A DNA stretch of 64,000 nucleotides, taken from contig NZ_OY782759.1 in assembly GCF_963678195.1 (NCBI RefSeq), positions 2,046,001-2,110,000 of the forward strand, read 5' to 3'. Below, piece after piece: positions 2,694 through 25,422 of this stretch (the first letter of the stretch is position 1; the number at the start of each line of letters is the position of its first letter). The notes below the pieces were generated by a model. It was not told the origin of the DNA, ran no database searches, and saw only the letters and a program-made list of their open reading frames with translations. The translations under genes were made by a program, and so were the position numbers. The DNA comes from an uncultured Hyphomonas sp. (GTDB lineage: Bacteria; Pseudomonadota; Alphaproteobacteria; Caulobacterales; Hyphomonadaceae).

Positions 2694-2708
2694 GCCGGAA
2701 GGAAACCC

Positions 2709-4124: not shown

Positions 4125-4203
4125 GCGCGCCACAGCCGCTTCCTTGCCCTTGCGCAGTCCCGCCTGATACGCAGGATGCGTGCATCAAGGTCAGGGGTTG
4201 CAG

Positions 4204-7303: not shown

Positions 7304-7306
7304 GAC

Positions 7307-7939
7307 ATGATCGATTGCGATATTGCTCTTCTCGGCGATGACGCGGTGTCCCTGCGACCGGCCTATAGAGAGCATCGCCATACGCTTGCGCAGTCTCTGC
7401 GCGAAGGCGGGCGCTGGGTGGATGTCGTGCCTGGAAAAGAGGTTGTGGCTGTGCGGTTCGACCCTCTGGTCACGGCGCCTGCAGAAGCAATTGCCGGTCT
7501 TGAAGATTGGTTGAAAAACTATGATGGGCAGTCATCCGGAGCAGGGGAGCCGATAGAGCTCGTATTGGACATATCCGCCGCAAATGCTCCGGACCTTGAA
7601 GCCCTGGCTCAACAGAACAAATTGTCGCCGGAGGCATTCCTGCAGAAAGTTATTCAGAGCGATCTGGTCGTGGACATGCTCGGTTTCACCCCGGGCTTTG
7701 CCTATGTCGACGGTGTGGATAAGAGCCTGGTGGCAGAACGCCTATCCGTACCCAGAGTAAAGGTGCCAGCCGGTTCGGTAGGACTACTGAGTGGTCAGAT
7801 CGGATTGTATGCTCTCGAAGGGCCGGGCGGTTGGCCGATTATTGGCCGCCTGAACGAAAAGCTGTTCGACGCAGAGAAACGAAATCCGTTCCTGCTGCAG
7901 GCGGGGCAACCGATTTCCCTGAAGCTGGCAGCCAGTTGA
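7307..7939 (+). CDS. pxpB: 5-oxoprolinase subunit B (KipI family)
   Basis: A 210-residue allophanate-hydrolase subunit 1 / KipI-family protein. The typical segment DMLGFTPGFAYVDGVD and the C-terminal AGSVGLLSGQIGLYALEGPGG-like region (positions 7765-7830) identify it. The first ~90 residues form the diverged N-terminal domain. It partners PxpC in the ATP-dependent half of 5-oxoprolinase. In Bacillus the homologue KipI also inhibits a sporulation kinase; nothing here suggests that role. pxpC starts one base after the stop. Confidence 0.9.
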   Translation: MIDCDIALLGDDAVSLRPAYREHRHTLAQSLREGGRWVDVVPGKEVVAVRFDPLVTAPAEAIAGLEDWLKNYDGQSSGAGEPIELVLDISAANAPDLEALAQQNKLSPEAFLQKVIQSDLVVDMLGFTPGFAYVDGVDKSLVAERLSVPRVKVPAGSVGLLSGQIGLYALEGPGGWPIIGRLNEKLFDAEKRNPFLLQAGQPISLKLAAS

Positions 7940-7940
7940 T

Positions 7941-8870
7941 ATGAGCTTCATTGTACTAAAACCGGGGCTTCAAACGACGCTGCAAGCATCGCCACGACAT
8001 GGATTTCGTCATATGGGCGTGCCGGCGTCGGGGCCCGCAGATCCTCTCTCCATGGCGCTTGCAAACAGATTGGTCGGCAATCGTTCGGATACTTGCTCGC
8101 TGGAAATTCCGTACGGTGTATTTTCGCTGGAAGCAAAGGCGGAAGCAAAAATTGCGGTGACGGGCGCCCCGGTAGCAGTCCTGATAGATGGCAATGTCGC
8201 GCCGATGCACAAGACTCTTTCGGTGCGGGCAGGGGACGCGATAGAGCTCGGTCCGGCTGAAACAGGCGCACGAGTATATCTGTCTGTCGCGGGTGGCTTC
8301 ACGGGGAACGCATTTCTGGGAAGCACGTCGACCTATCTGCCAGCCGGGTTTGGCGGACAGGAAGGGCGTGCGCTCAAGAACGGAGATGTGCTTTCCGTAT
8401 GTAACCCAGACACCAACCCGGTTGATCTGGAGACGCCTGAACAAATGCGGCAGGTCTTTTCTCACGGATTCGCGTTGCGGTGTGCCCCGGGGCCGGATGA
8501 AGACCTGATTGCCGGCTGGGATCGCATACAGGATTTCGTGGCCTCACGCCGCGCTGACAGAACCGGCATTGAAGTCACGGGCTCCTGGCCACAATTGCAG
8601 AATTCAGCACTGAAACCGAGCGCGCCCATATTTCCCGGTGGGATCCAGCTTACGCCATCCGGCGCGGCTTTCGTCCTGCTACAGGACGCGCAGACCACGG
8701 GCGGCTACCCACACGTTCTACAGGTCGCTCATGCCGACCAGCACCTGCTCGGGCAAATCCGGCCGGGTGACCGAATTCAGTTCCTGAAAAGGACTCCTGA
8801 AGAAGCGGCAGAAGATCTGCGGGAGAAGGTGGCGTACTTCAGAGACTGGTTACCTGATTTGCATCTCTAA
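7941..8870 (+). CDS. pxpC: 5-oxoprolinase subunit C (KipA family)
   Basis: A 309-residue allophanate-hydrolase subunit 2 / KipA-family protein: FIVLKPGLQTTLQ at the N terminus, RHMGVPASGPADP, and the late motif LQDAQTTGGYPHVLQVA are characteristic. With PxpA and PxpB it completes 5-oxoprolinase. The gene ends the plus-strand operon; its stop codon overlaps the stop of ccoS on the other strand by 4 nt (8867-8870), so the two operons converge with no space for a conventional intergenic terminator. Confidence 0.92.
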   Translation: MSFIVLKPGLQTTLQASPRHGFRHMGVPASGPADPLSMALANRLVGNRSDTCSLEIPYGVFSLEAKAEAKIAVTGAPVAVLIDGNVAPMHKTLSVRAGDAIELGPAETGARVYLSVAGGFTGNAFLGSTSTYLPAGFGGQEGRALKNGDVLSVCNPDTNPVDLETPEQMRQVFSHGFALRCAPGPDEDLIAGWDRIQDFVASRRADRTGIEVTGSWPQLQNSALKPSAPIFPGGIQLTPSGAAFVLLQDAQTTGGYPHVLQVAHADQHLLGQIRPGDRIQFLKRTPEEAAEDLREKVAYFRDWLPDLHL

Positions 8871-9019
8871 AGCGGTTTGTCTTCATCATCGATGAGGATG
8901 CGATTGGCAGACCCAACGGGATCATCGAATTGCCCCGAACGCACAGACCAGATGAACGCGCCCAATCCGAGCAGGCCCATGAAAAGGGCAATCGGGATGA
9001 GAAAGAGAATACCGCTCAT
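8867..9019 (-). CDS. ccoS: Cytochrome oxidase maturation protein CcoS
   Basis: A 50-residue single-helix membrane protein starting MSGILFLIPIALFMGLLG and ending with a short acidic tail, matching CcoS/FixS in size and layout. The in-frame ATG at 9058 would lie inside ccoI; the ATG at 9019, one base after the ccoI stop, is the likely start. CcoS is needed with CcoI for haem/copper insertion into the CcoN subunit of cbb3 oxidase. It is the last gene of the ccoGHIS unit. Confidence 0.9.
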   Translation of the reverse strand: MSGILFLIPIALFMGLLGLGAFIWSVRSGQFDDPVGSANRILIDDEDKPL

Positions 9020-9020
9020 A

Positions 9021-11237
9021 TTATTTGTCTTGCGCGAATGCTGCGAGACGGATCGCATTCAGCGACACCGCAACAGAGGAAAAGGACATTGCCAGGGCGG
9101 CAACAAGCGGCGTGGCATGGCCGGTGACGGCAATCGGAATCGCGACCAGATTGTAGAGGGCCGCAAAGGTGAAGTTCTCAAGCATGACGCTGCGCGTGCG
9201 CTTCGACAGTTTGAGCAAAACCGGCAAGGACTGAATGCCGCCTGAGTAAACCGCATCGCTTGCGGATTGGCTTATGTCGATCGCGGAGCCGGGGGTGACT
9301 GACGCGTGCGCCAGAGACAATGCTCCGGCGTCGTTAAGGCCGTCGCCGACCATCAGGACCTTGTGTCCCTGATCTCGCAGAGATTCCAGGTGCGCGGCTT
9401 TGTCCTGCGGCGATGCAGCAGCTGTGTAGTGTGAGATCCCCAGCTCGGACGCAACTTCGCTGACCCTGTCTTCCGTATCGCCAGAAAGGATTTCCGTTTC
9501 ATATCCGGCTTCGGCAAGCGCCCTGATGGCATCATCTGTTCCCGGGATGAGGCGATCCGTAAACTCCAGCGGCACCGGCTCTTGATCACCGCGCTGCAGG
9601 TACAGGTTCCGGGTATGTGTCTCGCCGCGGCCCACGCCGATCCAGCGGCCCGAGCCCAGTCTCCACAATTGTCCTTCGACAGACGCCTCAAGACCACAGC
9701 CGGGCACTTCCTTGACATCCGCCGCTACAGGACCGGGGCCTGCGACGTCAGATATGGCGCGTGAAAGCGGATGGCGGCTGGAGCGGGCGAGCAGGGCGGC
9801 ATCGGCGATGACCTCTGGTCCCGTATCTTCGCTCAGTTGAGGGACGCCGAGAGACAGCGTGCCGGTTTTGTCCAGTACGATCCGGTCCACCGATGCAAAA
9901 CGTTCCAGCGCGTCGCCGGATTTCAGAAAAATGCCGCGCTGGAAGAGTTTGCCCGCTGCAACCACGTGCGCCACCGGTGCGGCAAGGGCGAGTGCGCAGG
10001 GGCAGGTAATGATCAATGTCGACACCGCGATCAGGATAGATTCCCGAAATCCTGCACCGGCCAGCATCCAGCCAATGAAAGTCAGAGCCGCTGCAGAGTG
10101 GACGAAGGGCACGTAGAGGGCGACAGCCTTGTCCGCGATCCGCCTGTAAGCAGAGCGCCGTTGTTCACCGGCCTCCAGCATCCGTCCTATGTCGGCAAGC
10201 AGGGAGTCCGAAGCACGTGACAAGGCTTTTGCCTGAACCGGGCCCGAGAGGTTCACCGAACCGGCATAAATTCTCATGCCTTTGGAAAGGACATGGGGCG
10301 CGCTTTCTCCGGTAACCAGACTTTCGTCCAGCTCGCAAATATCATCCGCGAGGGCCATATCGACGACCGCTCGTTCCCCCTGCGCCAGAAGGATTGTGTC
10401 GCCCGGCGCCACAACGCCAGGGTTCACCTTGATTGCGTTTCCATCGCAGTCGACACGCGTAACTGCCCGGCTCGACATCCCGGCAAGGTCATTTGCGGCA
10501 GAACAGGCTCGTCGTCTCACACGGGCTTCCAGAAACCGCCCGATCAGAAGGAAGAAGATCAGCATTGCGGCTGCGTCGAAATAGGCGTGCTCTCCGCCGC
10601 GGATTGTCTCCACAACGCTCACTGTAAAGGCGAGAATGATGGCCAGTGAGATTGGCACATCCATATTTGCGCGGCCGCGCCGCAAGACAGACCAGGCAGA
10701 CCGGAAAAATGGGCGCCCGGAAAATGCAACGGCCGGTAGCGCAATCACGCCCGAAATCGCGTGCATGATTTGCTTGGTGTTACTCCCCATCTCGCCGGCA
10801 CCGGACCAGACAGAAACAGAAAGCAGCATGATGTTCGCCGCCGCAAAGGCAGCAACACCCATTGCCAGGAGAAGGTCCTTCTCTTCCTTGCGCTGGACTT
10901 CGTCTGCGTCAGTCTCTGCTGCGGCGCTGACGCCGTAACCAAGACCCGATACGGTTTCGGCGATCTCCGAGGCGGGCAGGGGGCCTTGCCAGGTGATATT
11001 GAATTTGCCCGTGGAGAGGTTCAGCCGGGCTTCAGAGACACCCTCTAAGGCACTGACCGATTTCTCGATTTTTGCCAGACATCCCGCGCATTTCGCACCC
11101 GAAACATGAAGTTCCAGATGCTGGGATTTGCCACTTTTCTGCACAAAAGCGGACAGGCCCGAATATGGCGACTCCTGCTCTGGTGTGTCGCTGAGGGACC
11201 AGTCACGCGTATGCGCGAGGACGTCCGTCGTGCTCAT
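9021..11237 (-). CDS. ccoI: Copper-translocating P-type ATPase CcoI/FixI
   Basis: A 738-residue P1B ATPase in the cytoplasmic membrane that supplies copper for cbb3 oxidase assembly. A heavy-metal-associated domain near the N terminus has Cys50 and Cys53 (KCAGC). The membrane metal site CPC is at residues 412-414, the phosphorylated aspartate is Asp456 in DKTGT, the dephosphorylation loop is TGES, and the hinge motif is GDGLNDAG. The start ATG overlaps the ccoH stop by 4 nt. Position between ccoH and ccoS, rather than with a copper-resistance regulator, argues for the assembly-type ATPase rather than a detoxifying CopA. Confidence 0.95.
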   Translation of the reverse strand: MSTTDVLAHTRDWSLSDTPEQESPYSGLSAFVQKSGKSQHLELHVSGAKCAGCLAKIEKSVSALEGVSEARLNLSTGKFNITWQGPLPASEIAETVSGLGYGVSAAAETDADEVQRKEEKDLLLAMGVAAFAAANIMLLSVSVWSGAGEMGSNTKQIMHAISGVIALPAVAFSGRPFFRSAWSVLRRGRANMDVPISLAIILAFTVSVVETIRGGEHAYFDAAAMLIFFLLIGRFLEARVRRRACSAANDLAGMSSRAVTRVDCDGNAIKVNPGVVAPGDTILLAQGERAVVDMALADDICELDESLVTGESAPHVLSKGMRIYAGSVNLSGPVQAKALSRASDSLLADIGRMLEAGEQRRSAYRRIADKAVALYVPFVHSAAALTFIGWMLAGAGFRESILIAVSTLIITCPCALALAAPVAHVVAAGKLFQRGIFLKSGDALERFASVDRIVLDKTGTLSLGVPQLSEDTGPEVIADAALLARSSRHPLSRAISDVAGPGPVAADVKEVPGCGLEASVEGQLWRLGSGRWIGVGRGETHTRNLYLQRGDQEPVPLEFTDRLIPGTDDAIRALAEAGYETEILSGDTEDRVSEVASELGISHYTAAASPQDKAAHLESLRDQGHKVLMVGDGLNDAGALSLAHASVTPGSAIDISQSASDAVYSGGIQSLPVLLKLSKRTRSVMLENFTFAALYNLVAIPIAVTGHATPLVAALAMSFSSVAVSLNAIRLAAFAQDK

Positions 11238-11743
11238 GGGATGATCAGTTTCTTACTCGCTGTGAACTCAACCTGATCTGTACCATAGGGAACGCTCGCT
11301 TGCACACGCGCTTCCCATACGCCTTTCTCGAGCAGGCTGATGTCGGCAAAATAGTCGCCGTTTGCGCTGCGCTGAAGCTCAACCGGAACATCTGCAGCTC
11401 CGGTGACGGTGCGGCGCAGTTGTGCCTGCACATCCTGTGTCGTGAGCGGGGCGTCCTCCTGAGTGAGAAAGCGCACAACCAGCCGGTCACCCGTTTCTGT
11501 CGGGGTCAGGCCAATTTGTGCTGACCAGCCCTGTTCTTCCTGGATTCGGCGCGCCGAAATGGTTTCGTTGTAGTGGAGGCCCTGAATGTAGGATTTCTGC
11601 TCGTCCTCACCGGGAAATGAGCTCAGTGCTGCCCACAGGAAGATCCCGTTGACGATGAACATGAACCCGAAGAATGCGCAGAGCATCAGGAAGACGTGCC
11701 ACCCATTCAGGCGGAACTGTTTGCGGGTTGCAGTGGCAGGCAT
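11234..11743 (-). CDS. ccoH: cbb3 oxidase assembly protein CcoH (FixH)
   Basis: A 169-residue FixH-family protein: a short cytosolic N terminus, one membrane helix at about residues 15-37 (FLMLCAFFGFMFIVNGIFLW), then a periplasmic domain with the family feature YNETISARR and a beta-sandwich-like C-terminal region. It is required for stable assembly of cbb3 oxidase. Its first base overlaps the last base of ccoG and its stop overlaps the ccoI start, so the genes are translationally coupled. Confidence 0.92.
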   Translation of the reverse strand: MPATATRKQFRLNGWHVFLMLCAFFGFMFIVNGIFLWAALSSFPGEDEQKSYIQGLHYNETISARRIQEEQGWSAQIGLTPTETGDRLVVRFLTQEDAPLTTQDVQAQLRRTVTGAADVPVELQRSANGDYFADISLLEKGVWEARVQASVPYGTDQVEFTASKKLIIP

Positions 11744-13188
11744 CAGTTCTCTCCCTGAACAAAGACAGCTGCAGCGTCTTCAGCTTCGCCAGTCTCTGTA
11801 TCGCGGACAATCACGGTGTAGTCGACCCGTGGCGCAGTGCCTTCAGGTGCACGGGTGACAAGCATGCGGAAGCGCTCCACACGATGCGAGCCAAGGTCAA
11901 GTTCGACAACGCCGTTTTCCTCTGTTTCGAGTCCGATCATCTGAAGCGACGCGCCGTCCAGGCCTTCAATCTCAACCGCAACATGGCGTCGCCCGGAGGC
12001 CTTATTGACCAGTTTGAGCGTATATCCATTCCGGATGTCGCCGCTGGACAGGCGGACAAAGGGCGGTGACCGGTCTTTCAGAACGTTCACTTCAAATGTG
12101 GATTTGTTGAAATACCCAAATCCGACCATGGATGCGATGATGAGCATAAGGGTGGCGTACAGGATCGTACGGACACGGAAAATCTTGTAAGTCGGTTTGC
12201 GCCCGGCAGCTCTATCAGCAACGGCGACATCCGTATCGTATGCGATAAGACCGGTCGGCCGTCCGATCTTTTTCATGATGTCGTCACAAGCATCAATGCA
12301 GAGTGCGCAATGGATGCACTCAAGCTGGGCGCCATCGCGGATGTCGATACCCATCGGGCAGACCTGCACGCATTGTTTGCAATCGATGCAGTCGCCGCGG
12401 CCTTCCCAGCTTTCGTTCTTGCGGTGAGGGCCACGCGGCTCACCGCGGTCGAAGCGGTAGGTCACGTTCAGCGCATTCTCATCCGTCAGGGCGCCCTGAA
12501 TACGTGGCCATGGGCACATATAGGTGCAGACCTGTTCCCGCATCCAGCCAGCGAGGAAGTAGGTCGTAAATGTCAGAATACCTGCGAAGAAATACGCTGT
12601 GAGCGGAGCTTCACCCGTGAACCAGCCTTTCGCGACAGTTGGCGCATCGTGCCAGTAAAGAACGAAAGCGCCGCCTGTCCAGAATGCGATGATCAGCCAG
12701 ATGAGATGTTTGCCCAGCTTCCGCCAGGCTTTGTTGAAGGACCAGGGTTGTGCATCAAGGCGCATCCGGGCTGCCCGGTCGCCTTCGAACGCTCGCTCAA
12801 CCCAGATGTAGAGGTCCGTCCAGACCGTCTGGGGGCAGGTGTAGCCGCACCATGCGCGGCCAAACAGAGACGTAACCAGGAACAGTCCGAGCGTGGCGAC
12901 GATGAGTAGCCCGGCCAGATAATAGAGTTCCTGAGGCCAGATCTCGAACCAGAAGAAATAGAATTTTTCACCGGCAAAGTCAGCCAGAACGGCCTGATCC
13001 GGAATACCCTCACCGCGGTTCCAGCGGATCCAGGGAAGGGCATAATAGATGCCCAGGGTGACGGCCATTACGACCCACTTGATCATCCGGAATTTGCCAT
13101 GGGCAAGTTTCGGGTAGATCTGCTTCCGCCCTTCGTAAAGGGACGGAGGCGTCGCATTGGACTTCGTGTGATCGATGACAGTCGTCAT
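11743..13188 (-). CDS. ccoG: cbb3 oxidase accessory polyferredoxin CcoG (FixG)
   Basis: A 481-residue membrane iron-sulfur protein. It has about five hydrophobic helices and two clustered ferredoxin motifs (CIDCKQCVQVCP and CIHCALCIDACD) for two 4Fe-4S clusters, plus upstream cysteines in CGYTCPQ and YMCPW. The C-terminal ~120 residues form the periplasmic Ig-like FixG domain. CcoG reduces copper during cbb3 oxidase maturation. It is the first gene of the ccoGHIS unit, 33 nt downstream of ccoP, so it may be read from the ccoN promoter. Confidence 0.95.
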   Translation of the reverse strand: MTTVIDHTKSNATPPSLYEGRKQIYPKLAHGKFRMIKWVVMAVTLGIYYALPWIRWNRGEGIPDQAVLADFAGEKFYFFWFEIWPQELYYLAGLLIVATLGLFLVTSLFGRAWCGYTCPQTVWTDLYIWVERAFEGDRAARMRLDAQPWSFNKAWRKLGKHLIWLIIAFWTGGAFVLYWHDAPTVAKGWFTGEAPLTAYFFAGILTFTTYFLAGWMREQVCTYMCPWPRIQGALTDENALNVTYRFDRGEPRGPHRKNESWEGRGDCIDCKQCVQVCPMGIDIRDGAQLECIHCALCIDACDDIMKKIGRPTGLIAYDTDVAVADRAAGRKPTYKIFRVRTILYATLMLIIASMVGFGYFNKSTFEVNVLKDRSPPFVRLSSGDIRNGYTLKLVNKASGRRHVAVEIEGLDGASLQMIGLETEENGVVELDLGSHRVERFRMLVTRAPEGTAPRVDYTVIVRDTETGEAEDAAAVFVQGEN

Positions 13189-13221
13189 TACCTGGGCACC
13201 AATATACTTCGATTACTAGGT

Positions 13222-14109
13222 TTACTCACCGCCACCGAGGGAGTGCACGTAAACGGCCAACGCCTTGATGGTGGCGTCGTCAAGACGACCCTGCCAAGCT
13301 GGCATATGGGAGTTGCGGGCATTCGTGATGGTGGCGCGGATGTCGTCCGGGTTCGAACCATAGAGCCAATCGGCGTCGGTGAGGTTCGGGGCGCCGACAT
13401 CTCGGGAGCCTTCTGCGTCCATGCCATGGCAACTTGCGCAGTTCGTCAGGAACAGTTCATCCCCACGAGCCGCAGCAGCTGCGTTGGCCTCATGACCGCT
13501 GACGCTGAGCACATACTGCACCAGGTCATCGATCTGCGCTGAGGTCAGCAGGCCATCGCGCCCGAAAGCCGGCATGGCGGAGAACCGGGTATCCGGATCT
13601 TCCTCATGACGGATGCCGTGACGGATCGTCTGCTCAATACCATCAAGCGTACCATCCCACAGCCAGACATCGTCTGCCAGCATCGGGTAGCCCTTGGCGC
13701 CGCGGCCGCCAGAGCCGTGGCAGGTCGCACAATTGTCGCCAAAGGCACTTTCACCCATGGCCATCGCAAATTGCTGCAGGTCCAGATTGTTCTGAATGTC
13801 CTGCAGAGACGCATCCAGCAGCTGGGCCGATGCCGCACTGCGTTCGGCATGCAGCGATGCGACGCTTTCAGCGACCGCGTCCCGGTCAGACATGCCGAGA
13901 ACACCAGGAGTGTTCCGGCTACCCATGCCCGGAAGCGACGGCAGGGCTGGCATGGCGATCATATAAAGGATCGCCCAGAAGATCGTGCCATACCAGATAT
14001 ACAGCCACCAGCGGGGAAGGGGGTTGTTCAGCTCCTTGATGCCATCCCAGGAATGCCCGGTTGTTTCCACGCCGGACAGGACATCAACTTCCTTGTCGGT
14101 CTCACTCAT
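13222..14109 (-). CDS. ccoP: cbb3-type cytochrome c oxidase subunit III (dihaem)
   Basis: A 295-residue dihaem c-type cytochrome that passes electrons to CcoO. One membrane helix near residues 28-50 (WLYIWYGTIFWAILYMIAM) is followed by two cytochrome c domains with haem motifs CATCH and CASCH. The start chosen (14109) has AAGGGG nine bases upstream and overlaps the ccoQ stop within ATGAGTGA; longer in-frame starts at 14127 and 14190 would lie inside ccoQ. Confidence 0.95.
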   Translation of the reverse strand: MSETDKEVDVLSGVETTGHSWDGIKELNNPLPRWWLYIWYGTIFWAILYMIAMPALPSLPGMGSRNTPGVLGMSDRDAVAESVASLHAERSAASAQLLDASLQDIQNNLDLQQFAMAMGESAFGDNCATCHGSGGRGAKGYPMLADDVWLWDGTLDGIEQTIRHGIRHEEDPDTRFSAMPAFGRDGLLTSAQIDDLVQYVLSVSGHEANAAAAARGDELFLTNCASCHGMDAEGSRDVGAPNLTDADWLYGSNPDDIRATITNARNSHMPAWQGRLDDATIKALAVYVHSLGGGE

Positions 14110-14263
14110 CTCCAGGTTCCCCTTCATCGAGCGGCCAACGGGCCGCTGCTTGGAATTTTTCCTTGTTTGACGGCCACAATGCGTACGCAACAGCGACTGC
14201 GAACATCAGAACGAAGAAGCCCAGGCCCCATGTCTGGGCAAATTTTGACAGAATCTCATACAT
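14102..14263 (-). CDS. ccoQ: cbb3-type cytochrome oxidase subunit CcoQ/FixQ
   Basis: A 53-residue protein read directly from the minus strand between ccoO and ccoP. It begins MYEILSKFAQTWGLGFF, has one membrane helix, and continues with ALWPSNKEKFQAAA and an acidic tail, which is the standard CcoQ pattern. The ATG is 10 nt after the ccoO stop and the TGA overlaps the ccoP start by 8 nt. CcoQ stabilises association of CcoP with the oxidase core. Confidence 0.93.
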   Translation of the reverse strand: MYEILSKFAQTWGLGFFVLMFAVAVAYALWPSNKEKFQAAARWPLDEGEPGDE

Positions 14264-14273
14264 GGCCCTGCCC

Positions 14274-15041
14274 TTACCTGCGATTATCCAGGTCGTCGGC
14301 TTCGTAGGTGGAGAAGTCCACCAGCGTGCCGACCATCTGGAGGTAAGCGACGAGCGCGTCGAGTTCCGTCACATTCTCCGGATTGCCGTCATAGTCGGCG
14401 ATCCGAACCGTGCCTTCGCGACCGGCAGCCTCTTCATAGCGGGCCACGAGCGCATCCTGCGCGTCATAGTCTGCATCAGGATCAGCTTGAGCGATCAGGT
14501 CGGCCTGGGCGTTCTCGATCATCTCATCGGTGTACGGAACCCCTTCGAAACGAAGCGCCTTCAGGTGATCGTCGATCGTTTCGAAGTGAAGCGTATTGTC
14601 AGCGAGGAACGCGTAAGGCGGCATCACCGATTCCGGAACCATCGACTGCGGATCCTTGAGGTGATCCACATGCCAGGTGTCGGAGTACTTGCCACCAACA
14701 CGGGCCAGGTCAGGCCCTGTGCGTTTGGAGCCCCACTGGAACGGGTGGTCATACATGCTCTCTGCAGCCAGGGAGTAGTGGCCGTACCGTTCGACCTCGT
14801 CCCGGAGCGGCCGCACCATCTGCGAGTGGCAGACATAGCAGCCCTCGCGGATGTAGACATTGCGGCCGGCCAGTTCGAGTGGCGTGTACGGGCGCATCCC
14901 TTCAACTTTCTCGATCGTGTTCTCGAGATAGAAGAGCGGTGCGATTTCCACGATCCCGCCGATGGCGACAGTGACCAGGATACCCAGCGTGAGTGCCAGA
15001 GAGTGACGCTCAAGCGTTTCGTGCTTTTTTATCAAGCCCAT
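14274..15041 (-). CDS. ccoO: cbb3-type cytochrome c oxidase subunit II (monohaem)
   Basis: A 255-residue membrane-anchored monohaem cytochrome c. The N-terminal helix at about residues 15-40 is followed by the haem motif CYVCHSQ and the family segment [16 protein letters not shown]. The late [13 protein letters not shown] is also typical of FixO. It starts 11 nt downstream of the ccoN stop. It accepts electrons from CcoP and delivers them to the haem-copper centre of CcoN. Confidence 0.96.
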
Positions 15042-15052
15042 GAGTAACTCTC

Positions 15053-16723
15053 CTATTCAGCGGGCTGGAGCGTCGCGGCGGCCGGTGCATCGACAGGGCG
15101 GGTGCCTTCAGCGGCAGCGCCGTGGCCGAGAGCCGTGCGGACGAGATTGTAGGCCATGATCAGCGCACCCGTGAGGTACAGGCTGCCGCCCAGGGCGCGG
15201 ATGATGTAGCTGACGTGCTTAGCTTCGACAGTTTCAATGAAGCTGTACTCGAGGAAGCCGTACTCATTGTAGGCGCGCCACATCAGGCCTTCGAGGATAC
15301 CGGCAAAGTACATCGCAACGATGTAGAAAACGATGCCGATGGTCGCGAGCCAGAAGTGCCACTCAACAAGCTTAAGCGAGTAGAGGGACGGACGCTTCCA
15401 GAGCCACTGCGTTGCGCAATAGAGCGCACCGAAGGAGATGAAGCCCACCCAGCCCATCGAACCGGAGTGAACGTGGGCAATGCCCCATTCCGTGTAGTGC
15501 GACAGCGCGTTGACGGCGCGGACGCTCATCAGCGGGCCTTCAAAGGTCGACATGCCGTAGAAGGCGAGGGCGACGACCATCATCCGGACGACGGGGTCTG
15601 TCCGCAGACGGTCCCAAGCACCCGACAGCGTCATAACGCCGTTGATCATACCGCCCCAGCTGGGCATCCAGAGCATCACGGAGAAGGTCATGCCCAGTGT
15701 CTGCGCCCACTGCGGCAGTGCCGTGTAGTGCAGGTGGTGCGGACCAGCCCAGATGTAGATGAAGATCAGCGACCAGAAGTGCACGATCGACAGGCGGTAG
15801 GAGTAGACCGGCCGCTGCACCCGCTTCGGAATGAAGTAGTACATGATGGCCAGGAAGCCCGTCGTAAGGAAGAAGCCCACGGCGTTGTGGCCGTACCACC
15901 ATTGGGTCAGAGCATCCTGAACCCCGCCGAAGAGCTGGTAGCTCTTGGAACCAGTCAGTGTGACGGGGAGGGTCAGGTTGTTCACGATGTGCAGCATGGC
16001 GATCGTGACGATGAAAGAGAGATAGAACCAGTTGGCCACATAGATGTGGGGTTCTTTCCGTTTCCAGATCGTGCCGAGGAAAACGAGGAGATAAGCCACC
16101 CAGACAATGGTCAGCCAGAGATCGGCATACCATTCCGGTTCAGCATATTCCTTGGATTGGGTAACTCCCATCAGATAACCGGTGCCGGCAATCGCGATGA
16201 AGAGGTTGTAGCCCCAGAAAACGAACCATGGCCACATGCCGCCTGCCAGACGTGTCCGGCAGGTACGCTGAACGACGTAGAAGCTGGTTGCCAGCAGAAC
16301 GTTGCCGCCGAACGCAAAAATGACCGCTGAAGTATGCAGCGGACGCAGGCGCCCGAAGTTCGTCCAGCCAAGCTGTTCGAAGTAGAAGATATTGGGGAAG
16401 GCCAGCTGGAGGGCGATAATCAGCCCGACCAGGAACCCGGCAATGCCCCAGAACATAGAAGCCGTGACGCCAAATTTGACAATCGTGTCTTCATAGACCG
16501 TCTGATCGAATGGATCCCGGTCACCCAGGCTGCCTGCCCAGAGTGCAAGTGCCAGAAGCCCTACCACGGCGAGGCCGAGGAAGAGCCAGGCATGTGCGCC
16601 CATAAGCGGATCGGCAGCATGGCTAGCGATCAGCAATGCCAATATGGCGAAGATGCTGGTAAAGGCCGCGACACTGCCAATGCTGGCAAATGCCGAGGAC
16701 CGTCTTTTTAGTAACGTGCTCAC
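15053..16723 (-). CDS. ccoN: cbb3-type cytochrome c oxidase subunit I
   Basis: The catalytic haem-copper subunit of the high-affinity cbb3 oxidase, 556 residues with about 12-14 membrane helices. Family-specific stretches include [33 protein letters not shown] and [17 protein letters not shown], which contain haem and CuB histidines. The frame is open further upstream, but AGGGGG lies about 9 nt before a GTG at 16723 (encoding [10 protein letters not shown]), and this gives a normal CcoN N terminus, so GTG is chosen. It is the first gene of ccoNOQP and points away from the fixLJ genes. Confidence 0.95.
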
Positions 16724-16872
16724 GTTGTTGACCCCCTGCGAGTCGTTGGAATTCTGGCGCCTTGATGCCGGTGTCGACTTCAAACCGGTATACGGTAAAA
16801 TACGGATGGGCTTCGCTGTCGCATCCGCCTAGTTCACAAAACGTATTCAAATCCACTCGAAGGAGCAAACAG
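16724..16872. promoter_or_regulatory. Divergent promoter region between ccoN and the small membrane protein gene
   Basis: These 149 bases must hold the ccoN promoter on one strand and the promoter for 16873-17139 on the other. I looked for the FNR/FixK palindrome TTGAT-N4-ATCAA and found none. Partial arms TTGAT (about 16773) and TTCAA are spaced too far apart. AAGGAG serves as ribosome site for the plus-strand gene. Regulation by FixLJ or FixK is therefore inferred from gene context only. Confidence 0.5.
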
Positions 16873-17139
16873 ATGACAAAATGGCTTTTGACGGGAGCAG
16901 CCCTTCTCGTGGCCGGTTTGTTAAAGATCTGGCAGCACACCAACGCTCCAATGACTCTGGAAGACTATCTCGCCTTCCGTTGCGGGTCTGCGTCCGGTGC
17001 AGCTGGCGATTCCTTTCTGACATTCGCAGGGCATTGCTGGGGATGTCCGGTAGCCGCGATTGGTGCAACGATGGTCGCCTATAGTGCGGTTATGATCATT
17101 GCATCGTCTCGCCGTCAGATGCTTGCCGTCCGCCGTTGA
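16873..17139 (+). CDS. Small membrane protein with HCWGC motif, unknown function
   Basis: An 88-residue protein with AAGGAG seven bases before its ATG. It has a hydrophobic segment at about residues 4-18 and a second at about 58-80, with a loop of about 35 residues between them that contains Cys37 and ends in the motif HCWGCP just at the start of the second helix. I do not recognise the family with certainty. The His-Cys-X-X-Cys pattern next to a cbb3 oxidase cluster and a haem-PAS kinase suggests a metal, haem or redox accessory role, but this is inference. It is transcribed away from ccoN and towards fixL, 55 nt upstream of it. Confidence 0.72.
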   Translation: MTKWLLTGAALLVAGLLKIWQHTNAPMTLEDYLAFRCGSASGAAGDSFLTFAGHCWGCPVAAIGATMVAYSAVMIIASSRRQMLAVRR

Positions 17140-17194
17140 CCGGCCCGGTCGCGCTCATTCCACATTTTGATACGGCTTACTTGGTACCAGGCAC

Positions 17195-18346
17195 TTGACC
17201 GATTTCACCAGCGACGCGGTATCGACAGATCTTGAGGCGCTACAGCTTCACCTGAGGTCGATTCTGGCTTCGGTGCCTGACGGCATGATTGTGATTGATG
17301 AAAAGGGGAAGATCCTCGCCTTTTCCAACGCGGCGGAAAAACTCTTTTCTTACAAGGCGGAAGATGTGATTGGCGCGGATGTCAGCCTGCTCATGGGCGG
17401 GCATGACGAAGCCAACCATCAGGCCTACGTCAACACTTACCTCGAGACCGGAAAGCGCCACATCATAGGCGTTGGCCGCGTCGTTACAGCGAAGCGATCA
17501 GACGGCACGCTCTTCCCGGTCGACCTTAAAATCGGAGAGGCCAGGGTTGGCGATCATTACCTGTTCACCGCCTTCGTCCGCGACCTTTCCGAGCAACGCC
17601 GCAATGAATTGCGCATGCAGGAAATGCAGGCCGAACTGGTGCATTTTTCCCGTATGAGCGCGGTCGGTACGATGGCTTCTGCGCTCGCCCACGAACTGAA
17701 TCAGCCCCTCACAGCGGTCGCGAACTACCTTGAAGCGGCGCGTGACTTGCTCGAATCCGATTCGGATAATGCGCGCGAAATACTGCACGAGGCGCTGGAT
17801 GAGGCCTCTCGTCAGGCTGTGCGAGCGGGTGAAATTGTCCGCAAATTGCGCGGCTATGTGTCTCGCGGGGAAATTGATGCGCGGTCCGTCGTGCTTGCAC
17901 CTTTGCTGGTTGATTCGATCGCCCTTGCCCGAATCTCCGGAGACATGGCGGACATTCCGATCGACAAGGATATAGAACCAGATCTGGGCGCGGTCCTTGC
18001 CGATCCAATTCAAGTCCAGCAGGTCGTCATAAACCTGCTCCGTAATGCCGCTGAAGCTCTCAACGGGGTCGCGTCACCCAAGATGCGGGTTGCCGCCCGG
18101 AAACACCCGGAATCCTTTGTGACCGTTGAAGTGTGCGACAATGGACCCGGCATGTCTGAAGAGGTCCGGAAAACCCTCTTCAAACCCTTCATGACTTCCA
18201 AATCCCAGGGCATGGGCCTTGGTTTGTCGATCTGTCAGACGATTATCGAGGCCCATGGCGGGAAGATCGAAGCGACTCCAGCAGCTGAAGGTGGCACGTG
18301 TTTTCGGTTCACACTCAGGCAGGATACCGCTAGTGGGAATTCATGA
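17195..18346 (+). CDS. fixL: FixL-like oxygen-sensing histidine kinase
   Basis: A soluble 383-residue sensor kinase with no membrane helices. A PAS domain (about 20-130) matches the haem PAS of FixL. Aligning HIIGVGR with the Bradyrhizobium FixL segment places His75 at the haem ligand, and His89 and Arg95 at the conserved distal/propionate positions, while the position of Arg206 in that protein is Thr here. The HisKA domain has phospho-acceptor His166 (ALAHELNQPL), followed by an HATPase domain with DNGPGM and GMGLGLSI. The start is a TTG; no in-frame ATG precedes the PAS domain. It overlaps fixJ by 4 nt, forming a classic pair that probably controls the adjacent cco cluster. Confidence 0.9.
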   Translation: MTDFTSDAVSTDLEALQLHLRSILASVPDGMIVIDEKGKILAFSNAAEKLFSYKAEDVIGADVSLLMGGHDEANHQAYVNTYLETGKRHIIGVGRVVTAKRSDGTLFPVDLKIGEARVGDHYLFTAFVRDLSEQRRNELRMQEMQAELVHFSRMSAVGTMASALAHELNQPLTAVANYLEAARDLLESDSDNAREILHEALDEASRQAVRAGEIVRKLRGYVSRGEIDARSVVLAPLLVDSIALARISGDMADIPIDKDIEPDLGAVLADPIQVQQVVINLLRNAAEALNGVASPKMRVAARKHPESFVTVEVCDNGPGMSEEVRKTLFKPFMTSKSQGMGLGLSICQTIIEAHGGKIEATPAAEGGTCFRFTLRQDTASGNS

Positions 18347-18975
18347 GTGAACAAAGACTGATCCACCTCGTCGACGATGATGATGCCGTCAGGCACTCGG
18401 CCAGCTTCATGCTTCGCCATGCCGGATTCGCCGTAAAGACCTATTCAGATGGCGTGGCGTTTCTCGAAGTCGCCGACGATGCGCAAGCTGGCTGCATCCT
18501 GCTGGATGTGCAGATGCCGCGCATGGACGGACTGGAAGTTCAGGAGCAGCTCAACGCCAAGGGAATCGCGATGCCGGTCATCGTTCTGACCGGACATGGC
18601 GATGTGAATGTCGCGGTCAAAGCCATGAAGGCTGGCGCTGTGGACTTCGTCGAAAAGCCCTATGAAAAACAAACACTTGTGGAGGCGCTCAATCGCGCAT
18701 TCCAGCATCTTCAGGAGCGCTCCGAACGCGATCTCCTGGTGGATAAAGCCCGCGGCAAGATAGAGCATCTAACGCCGCGAGAGCGTGAGGTTCTTGAGGG
18801 GCTGGTTGATGGACATACAAACAAGTCCATAGCCGATACTCTGGATATCTCTCCACGCACCGTTGAGATCCACCGGGCAAACCTGATGGAGAAACTTGGC
18901 GCGACAAGTCTCTCGGGCGTCCTGCGCATTGCCTTCGCGGCCGGAATTGGCTTTCAGGGCAAGGTTACGGACTAG
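18343..18975 (+). CDS. fixJ: FixJ-family response regulator
   Basis: A 210-residue two-domain regulator: receiver domain at about 5-120 with phosphorylatable Asp55 (LLDVQMPRMDG), TGHGDVNVAVKAMKAGA and Lys in VEKPY, then a LuxR-type helix-turn-helix at about 135-200 (LTPREREVLEGLVDG, SPRTVEIHRANLMEKLG). ATGA overlap with fixL shows they are a pair. In related bacteria FixJ activates fixK, which then drives the cbb3 operon; no fixK is present in this window, so direct action or a distant fixK is possible. Confidence 0.92.
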   Translation: MSEQRLIHLVDDDDAVRHSASFMLRHAGFAVKTYSDGVAFLEVADDAQAGCILLDVQMPRMDGLEVQEQLNAKGIAMPVIVLTGHGDVNVAVKAMKAGAVDFVEKPYEKQTLVEALNRAFQHLQERSERDLLVDKARGKIEHLTPREREVLEGLVDGHTNKSIADTLDISPRTVEIHRANLMEKLGATSLSGVLRIAFAAGIGFQGKVTD

Positions 18976-19041
18976 TACCTAAAGACAGAGACCGGCCGTT
19001 CCGCCAACATACAGGCTCGATAATCCTGTTGTTGGGTGGCC

Positions 19042-19467
19042 ATGTCGAACGCTTTGCTGAACAGACCAAAAAATGTTGCCGTCATTGACGACAGCGATGC
19101 TGTGCGCCGGTCTTTGTCACTGTTGCTAACCGCAAGAGGCTACGCGGCGATGGCCTTCGCCACCGGAGCCGAATTTCTCAAATCTCCTCTGAAGGGGTCC
19201 TTCGATTTCCTGTTGATCGATTACAAAATGGAAGATCTCTCCGGCGTCGACGTTTTGCATGCTCTCAGAGGGGAGGGCGTGGATACGCCCGCAGCAATGG
19301 TCTCGGGGTGGGAAACGTCGGGACTGGAGTGCCTGGCGATAGAGGCCGGATTTGCGGCATTCATCCGGAAGCCAATGCTGGACCACATTCTGTTTTCACT
19401 GATCGGTCCTCCGCTAGGCGGGGAAGGGGTGTCGCGCCGGCGCCCGAAAGCTGAAGGCGCAGCTTAA
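19042..19467 (+). CDS. Single-domain receiver protein
   Basis: A 141-residue stand-alone receiver domain without an output domain. It shows the acidic pair IDD, phospho-acceptor Asp60 (FLLIDYKMEDLSG), a Ser in AMVSGWE and Lys in FIRKP. A GTG six bases upstream (19036) is an alternative start. It follows fixJ by 66 nt on the same strand. The Caulobacter FixT protein is a single-domain receiver that inhibits FixL, so a feedback role is tempting. However, this protein has only one cysteine, so it cannot carry the iron-sulfur cluster reported for FixT. Function is inferred from location only. Confidence 0.75.
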   Translation: MSNALLNRPKNVAVIDDSDAVRRSLSLLLTARGYAAMAFATGAEFLKSPLKGSFDFLLIDYKMEDLSGVDVLHALRGEGVDTPAAMVSGWETSGLECLAIEAGFAAFIRKPMLDHILFSLIGPPLGGEGVSRRRPKAEGAA

Positions 19468-19676
19468 CAAAACCTTTCACACTGATCTCCAGCACATATG
19501 TTGCCGATGAAAACTGCAGGCGCTGACCGCAGGTTGCTTTGATGGCGACAAGCGTATGATGGGGCTCAGGCTGCTCGAACCGATAACCACAAGGTCCGGA
19601 TCTTATTGGGTTTTTATATTCCCAAGTCGCATAATCATCATTATGGGAAATTGGGTTATAGCGCGCAGTGGTGCTT
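19468..19676. other. Intergenic region between convergent genes, holding the dif-like site
   Basis: This 209-base gap separates the receiver gene (plus) from the metallo-hydrolase gene (minus); both genes point into it. Apart from the dif-like sequence at 19624-19651 I see no gene, and no clear intrinsic terminator with a T-tract. Confidence 0.7.
19624..19651 (+). other. dif: Candidate chromosome dimer resolution site (dif)
   Basis: A 28-bp XerCD-site layout: left arm AAGTCGCATAA, 6-bp spacer TCATCA, right arm TTATGGGAAAT. Compared with Escherichia coli dif, the XerC arm keeps the core CGCATAA (7 of 11 overall) and the XerD arm keeps 9 of 11 (TTATG..AAAT). The arms form the expected partial palindrome CATAAT/ATTATG around the spacer. 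It lies in a noncoding gap between convergent genes. GGGNAGGG octamers lie mostly on the plus strand left of it and on the minus strand right of it, as expected for FtsK-orienting KOPS around dif. No XerC/XerD gene is in the window. Confidence 0.85.
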
Positions 19677-20480
19677 TTATCTGATCTCTATGACCATCCC
19701 GTCGAAGCCAGGCTCCACGGATTTGGGGAGCTCCCTCTTCAGCGTCTCATAATCCAGATCCACGTGCATATTGGTCAGCACGGCGGCTCGGGGTTTGAGT
19801 TCAGCGATCCAGTCCAGCGCTTTCGCGACGTTGGCGTGGGTCGGATGGTCGGTATAGCGCAGCGCATCGATTACCAGTGTATCCAGGCCCTCAAGCGCAG
19901 TTTTCGTACGCCCGGGCAAATCGCTGACATCATTGCAATAGGCGAAATTGTTTATCCTGAAGCCAAGGCAGCGGATGCGCCCGTGCTCCATGTCGACCGG
20001 CAACATCGTGATATTGCCGCCTGCTCCGGAGATCTCGAACGGCGTGTACGGCGTTATATCGGGCTGAAGGTCGAGTATGGGTGGATAGCCGCCCATACCT
20101 TCGAAGCAGTAATCGAACCGCTTTGTCAGGATGTCCCGTGTTGCGGCATTCATGAAAGTCGGCAACGCGGCCCGCTGGCGGATGACCAGTGGCCGGACAT
20201 CATCTATTCCATGCACCTGATCTGCATGCTCGTGGGTATAGACGAGCGCATCCAAACGGGTGACGCCTGCGTCCAGAAGCTGCTCGCGCAGGTCGGGCGA
20301 AGTGTCGATGAGTGCAGACGTTACACCGCCGCGCCCATCATCCTTTTCGATCAGCACACAGCAACGCCGGCGCCGGTTTTTTGGTTCGTTCGGATCGCAT
20401 GCGCCCCAGTCTCCACCGACACGCGGCACACCGCCGGAAGAACCGGTGCCGAGGAGCGTGCAGCGAAATCCTGCGCTCAT
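19677..20480 (-). CDS. MBL-fold metallo-hydrolase (PhnP-like)
   Basis: A 267-residue metallo-beta-lactamase-fold hydrolase opening with LLGTGSSGGVPRVGG, as in the PhnP/YcdI-type phosphodiesterase-like family. The metal motif reads HEHADQ rather than the canonical HxHxDH, so the last histidine is Gln; a later His (MDVEHG/NMHVD-type positions) remains. In many alphaproteobacteria this gene follows tatD, as here, with a 4-nt overlap. Substrate is not known; phosphodiester or cyclic phosphate cleavage is suggested by family only. Confidence 0.85.
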   Translation of the reverse strand: MSAGFRCTLLGTGSSGGVPRVGGDWGACDPNEPKNRRRRCCVLIEKDDGRGGVTSALIDTSPDLREQLLDAGVTRLDALVYTHEHADQVHGIDDVRPLVIRQRAALPTFMNAATRDILTKRFDYCFEGMGGYPPILDLQPDITPYTPFEISGAGGNITMLPVDMEHGRIRCLGFRINNFAYCNDVSDLPGRTKTALEGLDTLVIDALRYTDHPTHANVAKALDWIAELKPRAAVLTNMHVDLDYETLKRELPKSVEPGFDGMVIEIR

Positions 20481-21253
20481 TGTTGGGTTACCTTGGCGAA
20501 CAGACGAACGGCATTTTCATCTGTTATCTGCTTGATCTCATCAACAGGCATGCCTTTCAGGCTCGCCAGCGCCTCTGCCACATGGGTCAGGTAAGCTGGT
20601 TCGTTGCGCCGCCCGCGCATTGGGACAGGAGCCAGATAGGGGCAATCCGTTTCAAGAATAATCCTGTCGATCGGAACGTCCGCTATGACCGCCCGGACTT
20701 CTTTTGCGCTCTTGAATGAAAGAATTCCCGATACAGACACATAGGCGCCGAGAGACAGCGCCCTCTGAGCGAGATCCGGCCCACCGGTGTAGCAATGCAG
20801 CAATGGTTGGAATGTGCCCTTTCGATATTCGTCCTCGAGTATATCAGCCATCAACTCATCGGCTTCGCGCGTATGAAGGATCAGGGGTAAGCCAGTGTCC
20901 CGTGCTGCGGATATGTGTTTGCGCAGGCTTGTCACCTGGTCATCCTCAGCGCTGTAGCCGTAGTGAAAATCGAGCCCCGTCTCGCCAATGGCAACCACTT
21001 CCGGATTCGATGCGGCCTTTATGAGCGTCTCAACCGTCAGGTCCGGAAAGTCTTTTGCGTGATGCGGGTGCACGCCGGCAGAGCACCATATGTCGCCATG
21101 AGAGCGGGCGATGGCGAGGACAGAGGCGAAATTGTCAAACCTGTCGCAAATAGCGAGAAACCTGGCCACACCGGCTTCGCGGGCGCGTTCAAGCACCTCT
21201 TCCAGGTCGTCGGCAAAAGGTTCGCCGTGCAAATTGACGTGAGTATCAAACAT
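20477..21253 (-). CDS. tatD: TatD-family metal-dependent hydrolase/DNase
   Basis: A 258-residue TIM-barrel hydrolase with MFDTHVNLHGE at the N terminus, GETGLDFHYGYS, LILHTREADE, LHCYTGG and the late metal-binding ETDCPYLAP. TatD proteins are Mg-dependent 3'-5' nucleases. The usual first metal motif HxH is seen as THVNLH. The frame continues 9 nt upstream to a TTG (21262), but the ATG at 21253 is preferred. It lies between holB and the metallo-hydrolase in a compact minus-strand operon. Confidence 0.93.
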   Translation of the reverse strand: MFDTHVNLHGEPFADDLEEVLERAREAGVARFLAICDRFDNFASVLAIARSHGDIWCSAGVHPHHAKDFPDLTVETLIKAASNPEVVAIGETGLDFHYGYSAEDDQVTSLRKHISAARDTGLPLILHTREADELMADILEDEYRKGTFQPLLHCYTGGPDLAQRALSLGAYVSVSGILSFKSAKEVRAVIADVPIDRIILETDCPYLAPVPMRGRRNEPAYLTHVAEALASLKGMPVDEIKQITDENAVRLFAKVTQQ

Positions 21254-21266
21254 GGGTCTCAATCAC

Positions 21267-22199
21267 TTAACGGCCGGATGCTGACAAAAGTCCGGAGACC
21301 AGTTTCGCTGCAGCTTGCTCGGGATCCATGTTCAGTTCACCAACTTCTCCGACCAGCTTCACTGTGTTGAGCCAGGTCCGGGATTTCGGAGGTTCCTCTG
21401 TTGCGTCTTCCGCAAGCTTTGCCAGTACTTCGTCCCTGAATGCCGCGAACGCTGTCTGGTCTATGCCCGCTGCCTGTATGGCCCTCGTTACGAGCGCGTC
21501 ATTGGGCCGTGGCATGGAGGTCATCAGTGTGCGTGCGGCGTTGGCAGCAATGCGGCAAGTTTCGGAAGCTCTCTCCACCGCCAGTCCGGGACGGCCATGC
21601 CGGATTGCGGAAACGTCTCCCTCATAGCCCTGAAGCTTCAATACCTCGGACATCTCTTCCTTGTTCAAAGTGTGGACCCGGAGCGTGCGGCAGCGTGAGC
21701 GGATCGTTGGGAGTACCGGGCGGGATCCGTGATTGACCAGAAACATGATGGCCGCCTTGGGCGGTTCTTCCAGCGTCTTCAGGATCGCGTTGGCGGAGTT
21801 CCGGTTCAGCTCATCCAGAGAATCCACAATACCCACGCGCCAGCCACCCATCGCTGGCCGATAGGTGAAAAACTCATTGAAGGCGCGGATTTGCTCGATT
21901 GAGATATCCTGCTTCAGTTTGCCTTTATCATTCAATTCACGCGTCAGGATGCGTAGGTCCGGGTGGCCGCCGGACAGGCAACGCGACATGACCGGGTCAT
22001 CCACAGACGCATCGAATGGCGCATCGGCCGATCCTCGTGCGCCAAGCAACCAGGCCGCACAGCGCATGGCAAAGCGTGCCTTTCCGATCCCCGAGGGGCC
22101 TTCAATCATCCAGGCATGGTGCATCCGGCCGCTGGCGGCCGCTGCCTCAAACGTCCGCTCAGCGTCATTATATCCGATGAGAGGAAGCGCCGCAGTCAT
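21267..22199 (-). CDS. holB: DNA polymerase III subunit delta prime
   Basis: A 310-residue clamp-loader ATPase-like protein. MTAALPLIGYNDAERTF opens the protein, followed by the Walker A-like GPSGIGKA, the sensor region LDELNRNSANAILKTLEEPP and FLVNHGSRPVLPTIRSRC, all typical of HolB. It loads the beta clamp together with the DnaX and HolA subunits. The ATG overlaps the tmk stop by 4 nt, which is the common alphaproteobacterial tmk-holB arrangement. Confidence 0.94.
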   Translation of the reverse strand: MTAALPLIGYNDAERTFEAAAASGRMHHAWMIEGPSGIGKARFAMRCAAWLLGARGSADAPFDASVDDPVMSRCLSGGHPDLRILTRELNDKGKLKQDISIEQIRAFNEFFTYRPAMGGWRVGIVDSLDELNRNSANAILKTLEEPPKAAIMFLVNHGSRPVLPTIRSRCRTLRVHTLNKEEMSEVLKLQGYEGDVSAIRHGRPGLAVERASETCRIAANAARTLMTSMPRPNDALVTRAIQAAGIDQTAFAAFRDEVLAKLAEDATEEPPKSRTWLNTVKLVGEVGELNMDPEQAAAKLVSGLLSASGR

Positions 22200-24123: not shown

Positions 24124-25422
24124 TTATTCGCCTGTAACAATGCGTCCTTGCGCAATTCCGGCATAGGAGAGGTCTTCCCGGGCGCGTTCGGCTTCCGACC
24201 GGCTGACCAGTGGTCCGACGCGGACGCGGAAATAGTCAGCGCCATTCACGCGGGCGGGAACAATCGTCACCGGGAGTGAAGCCTGCACGCGATTGCTCAG
24301 TGACTGTGCGTTCGAGATATCCGTGAAGGAGCCAATCTGGACGAAGAAATCGCCCGTCGGTGCTGCAGCTGGCTGAGGATCAAAGGTGTAGGTGGGCCGA
24401 ACTGCACGTTGCGGCTCCGCCGAGACGGTTTGATAGGCAACCGGCTCCATGAAATCGTCCGCTGCGGCAGGCTGCGGTGCAGCCTCTGCGGGCAACGCTG
24501 CCGACTGAGCATAGACCGGGGCTTCCGCCTGCGGTGCGGTGGTTGCGACGGCAGGAGCAGAGCCCAGATAGCGAACCCGGAGCGTGGCCTTCCCTGCCCC
24601 GCCCATGCCAAGCTCATTGGCCGCGCGAGGGGAAACCTGAAGCGATGCGCTGTCTTCAAACGGACCACGGTCATTGACCCGGAGTACGACTTCCTTGCCG
24701 GTCTCTTCGTTCACAACCTGGATCAGGCTCGGAAGAGGCAATGTTGGATGAGCGGCCGTCATGGCATCCGGAGCAAAGGTTTCGCCATTGGCCGTCGGCA
24801 GGCCGTTGAACTCGCTTCCATACACAATCGCAACGGCCGTCTCGTCGAAGACCGGGACCGGCTCGCTGGAGACGGAATAAGACGTGGCTGGCGTCAGCTG
24901 GCGCGGCGCTTGCTGGAACTGCTGAGGCGCTGGCGCAGGGACAGGCTGAACCTGAATTGGCGCGGGCGCCGGTGCGGCAACCGCCTGCAGGCTTGGCAGC
25001 GCTTCGCTCTCTACAGCGGAGATCGAACGCTCGGCTTCGATACGTGCAGCGGCGGCGCGGGCTTCGAAACTGTTGCCAGTGGAGACGGGCGTGCTGGAAT
25101 AATTCGGGGACGGGGTCTTCGTGCTCGCATAGTCACGCCCCCCCTGCTCTGCCGGTTGAGCTTGCGGCGAAGGTGAAACGGGCGAACCCGGATAGCGGAA
25201 TTGAATCCGCGCCTGCTTCTTCGCTGAGGCGTCTGCAGAACGGCTCGGCTCGATATACTGGGGCTTGCCGGCAGGATACGGCGAAGTTCCGTTTGCATAG
25301 ACGATGGGTGCCGGATTGCGGCGGTCAGCATGCGCAGGTGTCACGACAGAGATCGCAACCGCGCCAGCCAGGACCAGAGACGTCAGGTGCAGAGATTTTG
25401 AATCGGAAGAAACGGTCTTCAA
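24124..25422 (-). CDS. rlpA: RlpA-like septal/envelope protein with SPOR domain
   Basis: A 432-residue exported protein. A signal sequence (LVLAGAVAISVVTPAHA) is followed by a long Pro/Ala/Gln-rich linker, then a double-psi beta-barrel at about residues 205-300 with IVYGSEFNGLPTANGETF and RVNDRGPF, the catalytic region of RlpA lytic transglycosylases. A SPOR domain follows at about 355-430 (FFVQIGSFTDISNAQSLSNR), which binds denuded septal glycan. The signal peptide lacks a clear lipobox cysteine, unlike E. coli RlpA. Its place before dacA fits a peptidoglycan role. Confidence 0.92.
   Translation of the reverse strand: MKTVSSDSKSLHLTSLVLAGAVAISVVTPAHADRRNPAPIVYANGTSPYPAGKPQYIEPSRSADASAKKQARIQFRYPGSPVSPSPQAQPAEQGGRDYASTKTPSPNYSSTPVSTGNSFEARAAAARIEAERSISAVESEALPSLQAVAAPAPAPIQVQPVPAPAPQQFQQAPRQLTPATSYSVSSEPVPVFDETAVAIVYGSEFNGLPTANGETFAPDAMTAAHPTLPLPSLIQVVNEETGKEVVLRVNDRGPFEDSASLQVSPRAANELGMGGAGKATLRVRYLGSAPAVATTAPQAEAPVYAQSAALPAEAAPQPAAADDFMEPVAYQTVSAEPQRAVRPTYTFDPQPAAAPTGDFFVQIGSFTDISNAQSLSNRVQASLPVTIVPARVNGADYFRVRVGPLVSRSEAERAREDLSYAGIAQGRIVTGE

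Follow-up and report, generated by a model that had tools for sequence, protein, structure and literature searches.

Does the 209-bp non-coding gap at positions 19468-19676 of the Hyphomonas DNA analyzed here (a stretch of 64,000 nucleotides, hereafter the window, equivalent to C1:2046001-2110000 of the genome) hold the dif site of the chromosome, or does it hold a palindrome that only resembles one? The gap is bordered on the left by a response-regulator gene with nothing but a receiver domain, which runs toward the site (19036-19467, + strand), and on the right by a gene for a beta-lactamase-fold hydrolase (19677-20480, - strand). These neighbors are convergent because the forward reading frame ends at 19467 and the reverse one at 19677. 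The original prediction had placed a dif site with the spacer TCATCA between them at 19624-19651 (C1:2065624-2065651), and both coordinates and letters are exact. The 28-mer AAGTCGCATAA/TCATCA/TTATGGGAAAT consists of a XerC-type left arm, AAGTCGCATAA (19624-19634, + strand; 7 of 11 bases identical to the E. coli arm), a central region of 6 bp, TCATCA, as read from the sequence (19635-19640, + strand), and a XerD-type right arm, TTATGGGAAAT (19641-19651, + strand; 9 of 11 bases identical). In this 11+6+11 architecture the inner arms are palindromic, as are 20 of the 28 positions overall, and the G+C content of the 28-mer is 32% as opposed to roughly 60% in the surrounding region.

The site shares with E. 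coli dif its length of 28 bp, the division into 11+6+11 and the inner arms CGCATAA and TTATG..AAAT, which the prediction had likewise named. Altogether 18 of 28 bases are identical to E. coli dif, with the differences in the outer left arm, in the centre and in TTATGGG, where E. coli has TTATGTT. Among the alphaproteobacterial sites tabulated by Carnoy and Roten (2009, PMC2731167), the dif of Mesorhizobium loti has the identical left 11-mer AAGTCGCATAA (Table 1). In M. loti and Agrobacterium tumefaciens the sites are intergenic, too, with one assigned per chromosome, but their right arms read TTATGGAACTT rather than TTATGGGAAAT and their centres differ (PMC2731167). The dif of Caulobacter crescentus resembles ours in lying near the terminus of an alphaproteobacterial chromosome, whereas the CGCATAA left arm is missing from the sequence published for it (PMC2731167, Table 1). 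Hyphomonas is absent from the main texts of PMC2731167 and PMC3025954, and a literature search for Hyphomonas together with dif, with supplementary dif tables outside its scope, found nothing relevant; a Hyphomonas dif site may well be in print already. We regard it as very nearly certain that the 28-mer is the chromosomal dif site, based on its sequence, uniqueness, position, the polarity of nearby octamers, conservation in the genus and the protein genes of the same genome. It is an ordinary chromosomal dif and as such a further example of a well-known element.

The full 28-mer has a single match at up to 3 mismatches in the 3,672,159-bp single-contig genome, and a 17-base pattern of the two arms likewise finds only this place on both strands of the whole genome at the same threshold. 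Reversed versions of both patterns have no match genome-wide at up to 3 mismatches. Inside the window the arm pattern again points to this one place at up to 3 mismatches; the palindrome can be read on the opposite strand as well, with 3 mismatches, and so yields a second entry for the same position. A two-arm pattern search of the window and the 20 kb to its left gave no second place with at least 13 of 17 arm positions. With up to 3 mismatches allowed, no better dif match turned up anywhere else in the genome. That the likeness arose by chance is an explanation for which we found no supporting point, and we consider its probability practically nil: 100 shuffled windows contained on average 0.05 arm-pattern matches at up to 3 mismatches and none reached 2, while the 28-mer matches the arm pattern exactly; the reversed pattern is absent from the genome; and the site is conserved as a single copy in 36 of 37 genomes of the genus.

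In E. coli, FtsK is oriented toward dif by polar octamers (KOPS) of the type GGGNAGGG. The locus resembles the E. coli dif/XerCD/FtsK arrangement in its terminus position and in the convergence of GGGNAGGG on the site. Genome-wide, GGGNAGGG occurs 444 times in forward and 426 times in reverse orientation; its backwards reading is found 265 and 273 times. Within a contiguous 344 kb around dif, the left side carries 27 forward copies and 1 reverse copy and the right side 3 forward and 31 reverse copies, so that 27 of 28 and 31 of 34 octamers, respectively, are directed at the site; the counts in the window alone are 8 forward and 1 reverse on the left and 1 forward and 15 reverse on the right. 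The interval that best separates the two orientations, C1:2065421-2070592, spans 5.2 kb, contains dif and leaves 4 exceptions among 62 octamers. Close to the site, copies directed at dif lie at 19270-19277 (+ strand), at 19421-19428 (+ strand; the nearest on the left) and at 24592-24599 (- strand; the nearest on the right). Of the 6,667 octamers that fit XXXNXXXX and were counted at least 40 times, none is directed at the site as strongly as GGGNAGGG, with 58 copies pointing towards dif and 4 away from it. It is also densest within 20 kb of dif: the two 10-kb bins next to the site hold 5.0 and 4.0 directed copies per 10 kb, and those farther away 0.9-2.3. Part of this polarity reflects general strand composition because the backwards octamer GGGANGGG is polar in the 344 kb as well (17 forward and 1 reverse on the left, 6 forward and 16 reverse on the right). 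By analogy with E. coli, the host FtsK would read GGGNAGGG in the direction of dif.

The composition of the chromosome points to the same region. Over the 344 kb, cumulative GC skew is highest at 2074355, i.e., 8.7 kb from dif and not exactly at the site, compared to a median distance of 7,277 bp (quartiles 2,056-21,446) that PMC2731167 gives for 161 proteobacterial chromosomes. The positional analysis as a whole covered about 16-17% of the chromosome. In twenty 10-kb samples spread around it, the skew is negative at 1 and 180 kb, positive from 360 kb to 1,980 kb and negative again from 2,160 kb onward except for a value of +0.001 at 2,520 kb, so that the sampled skew changes sign around dif. 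A second switch in GGGNAGGG polarity at C1:245550-249285, almost diametrically opposite dif, marks the replication origin, and the skew minimum of the origin stretch is found at 228556, 17-21 kb off this switch. The replichores from there to dif measure 1.818 and 1.854 Mb (49.5:50.5). The original prediction had proposed GC skew and a genome-wide search for dif-like 28-mers as checks, and both favor it: the reading as the chromosome's own dif site is supported by a sequence that is unique in the genome, sits inside the octamer switch and is 8.7 kb from the skew maximum. Taking dif as the terminus of the chromosome, one can now read the position and strand bias of the genes in the window relative to replication.

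How widely the site is shared was assessed by searching 61 genomes (37 of the genus including our own and 24 others of the same order) for the arm pattern with no more than 1 mismatch; 41 of them matched. Within the genus, 36 of 37 genomes contain exactly one copy, and the one other genome (G031) has no match to the arm pattern at this threshold. Of the 24 others of the order, only 5 have a match under the same condition, and the arm pattern is therefore lineage-specific. Because the search pattern fixed every position other than the centre and positions 23-24, conservation at the fixed positions is less informative; at the free ones, all 21 genus sequences compared agree in the first two and the last base of the centre and in GG at positions 23-24. 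A genus-wide dif site with clear octamer polarity is now available.

These comparisons also bear on another reading of the gap, in which the palindrome would serve as a bidirectional terminator that ends both transcripts and its likeness to dif would be accidental. The gap does separate convergent genes, and a 51-nt RNA from the site folds better than its shuffles (z = -3.1 on the + strand and -2.3 on the - strand). However, the relatives compared retain the 28-mer but not the outer CCCAA/TTGGG part of the stem, and it is for this reason that we reject the terminator. In addition, the inner stem is A-T rich, no conserved G+C-rich stem followed by a T run as in intrinsic terminators was found at the site, and a terminator scan gave two hits that both lie elsewhere in the 209-bp gap. 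A terminator would also leave the uniqueness of the sequence, the octamer polarity and the terminus position unexplained, and we consider this reading extremely unlikely.

We compared up to 10 kb on each side of the site in 20 genus relatives (of the 35 with a match besides our own genome). Summed over these relatives, the octamers number 66 forward and 11 reverse on the left and 7 forward and 68 reverse on the right. The gene order hydrolase-TatD-holB-tmk-dac-RlpA is present on the right in 20 of 20 relatives at nearly equal distance from dif, beginning with the same beta-lactamase-fold hydrolase gene as the right neighbor of dif in each relative fetched. In contrast to this constant right flank, the left flank varies between three gene sets: ccoNO-fixLJ in 9 of 20 relatives, genes for pyruvate dehydrogenase, a Nramp-like protein and a pxpC-like protein in 7, and genes for IMP dehydrogenase, rsmB and guaA in 4. 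Several of these left-flank gene names we presume from sequence likeness. Our own genome has the pyruvate dehydrogenase and Nramp-like genes 14-21 kb to the left of dif, past the fix/cbb3 cluster, and the guaA/IMPDH genes 14-21 kb to its right on the opposite strand. Given this location on the right of dif and on the other strand, the four genomes with the guaA set would fit a terminus-spanning inversion with one break just left of dif. We had also considered the orientation of dif relative to the octamers as an informative character across relatives and dropped it because the octamers point at dif from both sides either way.

A variable flank is also what could be expected if the 28-mer were a dif-like attachment site left by a phage or plasmid that uses Xer recombination and not the chromosome's own dif, and dif sites do occur in contigs of tailed phages (see below). 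Yet the searches at up to 3 mismatches gave a single dif-like place genome-wide, and the right flank consists of housekeeping-type genes common to all 20 relatives fetched. The behavior of ccoN, which is encoded elsewhere in the genome of 11 relatives without a fix cluster beside dif, speaks against this origin as well. We judge a mobile-element origin to be highly improbable and retain the chromosomal dif site as our interpretation.

The fix/cbb3 cluster itself consists of ccoO and ccoN of a cbb3 oxidase (14274-16783, - strand) and of fixL-like and fixJ-like genes (17195-18975, + strand), all neighbors outside dif. The FixL-like kinase contains just one PAS region and falls far short of the cut-off for full-length FixL (415.6 against 850), and the FixJ-like protein scores 251.4, just below its cut-off of 255. 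The original prediction had set fixLJ and the cbb3 oxidase genes beside the terminus, which holds true for this genome; as a trait of the genus it does not, given that the cluster is found there in just 9 of 20 relatives. We also considered a recent acquisition of the fixLJ-cbb3 cluster beside dif and found no support for it, since all 14 genomes searched have ccoN, including 11 that have it away from dif and lack a fix cluster there (about 605 kb from dif in G016).

The genome further encodes the proteins expected to act on such a site. Two full-length Xer-type tyrosine recombinases are encoded at C1:278701 and C1:3608233, and the R, HxxR and Y motifs of this family are visible by eye in both translations. 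The first has its top score with the general Xer subfamily model, above the cut-off, and scores higher for XerD than for XerC; the top score of the second is with the XerC model. The best scores among the XerC and XerD equivalog models are for XerD in one protein (L022) and for XerC in the other (L023), with both below the NCBI equivalog cut-offs (303.9 vs 335.15 bits for the XerC-like and 290.3 vs 329.6 bits for the XerD-like protein), so that the two assignments are tentative. An FtsK with a gamma domain is encoded at C1:257899 (E = 4e-27, above the cut-off). Extrapolating from established Xer biology, FtsK at the division septum would read GGGNAGGG-type octamers and pump the DNA of both replichores toward dif, where XerC would bind AAGTCGCATAA and XerD would bind TTATGGGAAAT. 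FtsK gamma would then activate XerD, and strand exchange across the 6-bp centre would convert a chromosome dimer into two monomers.

A wider search of the class showed an exact 17-base match in 79 of 385 genomes, 78 of which have it once. The sole genome with two matches (G315) carries a site at G315:C23:450036 (L395:10036-10063, - strand), and no terminase was recognized by eye in the surrounding listed reading frames. Three Asticcacaulis genomes have dif matches on two contigs each (L077/L128, L089/L090 and L091/L134); these perhaps correspond to one dif per replicon of the two-chromosome genome of this genus.

Matches also appeared in viral contigs (L196-L200 and L223-L337, e.g., the site L196:4977-5004), and this side result is less ordinary than the chromosomal dif and would matter more if confirmed. 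An exact scan with a 19-base dif pattern found six viral contigs, and in five of these the site is no more than about 210 bp from a terminase gene; the 17-base pattern matched at least 120 stretches compared to 22 for the reversed pattern. Among the matches listed, a terminase gene lies within 3 kb in 49 of 123 dif loci (the analysis below covers these 49) and in 0 of 22 control loci. The 49 loci, again among the matches listed, comprise 44 with a large terminase gene (terL) and five with only a small one (terS), and dif is located upstream of the terL start in 44 of 44 cases. PHROGs profiles assigned the large terminase family to all 41 TerL proteins scanned (of 44) and the small terminase family to 7 of 10 terS genes, including all five loci with terS only; two (L197 and L308) had no assignment and L280 was not scanned.

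To pick loci independently of dif, we took 80 by TerL similarity and examined up to 900 bp before terL. A dif-like site is present there in 11 of 80 loci at up to 3 mismatches (one of these 11 is on a contig that the dif search had found as well) and in 7 of 80 at up to 1 mismatch; the remaining 69 have no site before terL, and some have little sequence there. Elsewhere in the same 80 loci there is no site at up to 1 mismatch, nine loci have weaker ones, and the reversed pattern occurs in none of them before terL and in three elsewhere. Among deposited phage records, that of C72C1 has a site with 2 mismatches between terS and terL (L397:19397-19424). This record is circular with 61 annotated features, among them a repressor and a replication initiator, and contains no annotated integrase and no PF00589 match; a search of plasmid DNA with its terS-terL gap found no match. 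Sinorhizobium phage phiM5 and MW202879, which have a related terminase, contain no site at up to 4 mismatches, and a search at up to 3 found none in eight isolated pelagiphages whose TerL is related.

Tyrosine integrases (PF00589) were found in none of the 37 dif-plus-terminase contigs searched (12 of the 49 were left out) but in 2 of the 12 controls, whose contigs are longer; their absence from the former is weak evidence because most contigs are fragments. In the set picked by TerL, an integrase was present in 1 of 10 loci that carry a site (here a site of 2 mismatches) and in 1 of 30 without. In the class sample of 385, 30 of 32 prophage loci with related TerL were covered (in 30 genomes) and none had a dif-like site within about 1.5 kb, and none of the 37 genus genomes searched has two sites at up to 1 mismatch. 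It is possible, if somewhat short of probable, that a broad set of tailed phages with dif upstream of terL (often in the terS-terL gap) and no tyrosine integrase found exploits XerC and XerD of the host, either for integration at dif or for resolving multimers as circular phage-plasmids. The negative results in the 30 chromosomal TerL loci, the genus genomes and the eight pelagiphages speak against integration. Filamentous and tailless vibriophages are described as hijacking Xer (PMC4246890 and PMC9966536). No report of dif at terminase genes of tailed phages was found in titles and abstract openings or in passages of PMC3861242 and PMC7901474, a scope outside which most subscription papers and all preprints fall. 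If true, dif located at their packaging genes would offer tailed phages another way to become lysogenic or to resolve multimers that needs no integrase of their own. Finally, one contig titled as a metagenome-assembled genome of Acidobacteria (L107, JAQCLD010000108.1) has dif between a terS-like and a terL-like gene and is, judging from this arrangement, probably a phage contig.
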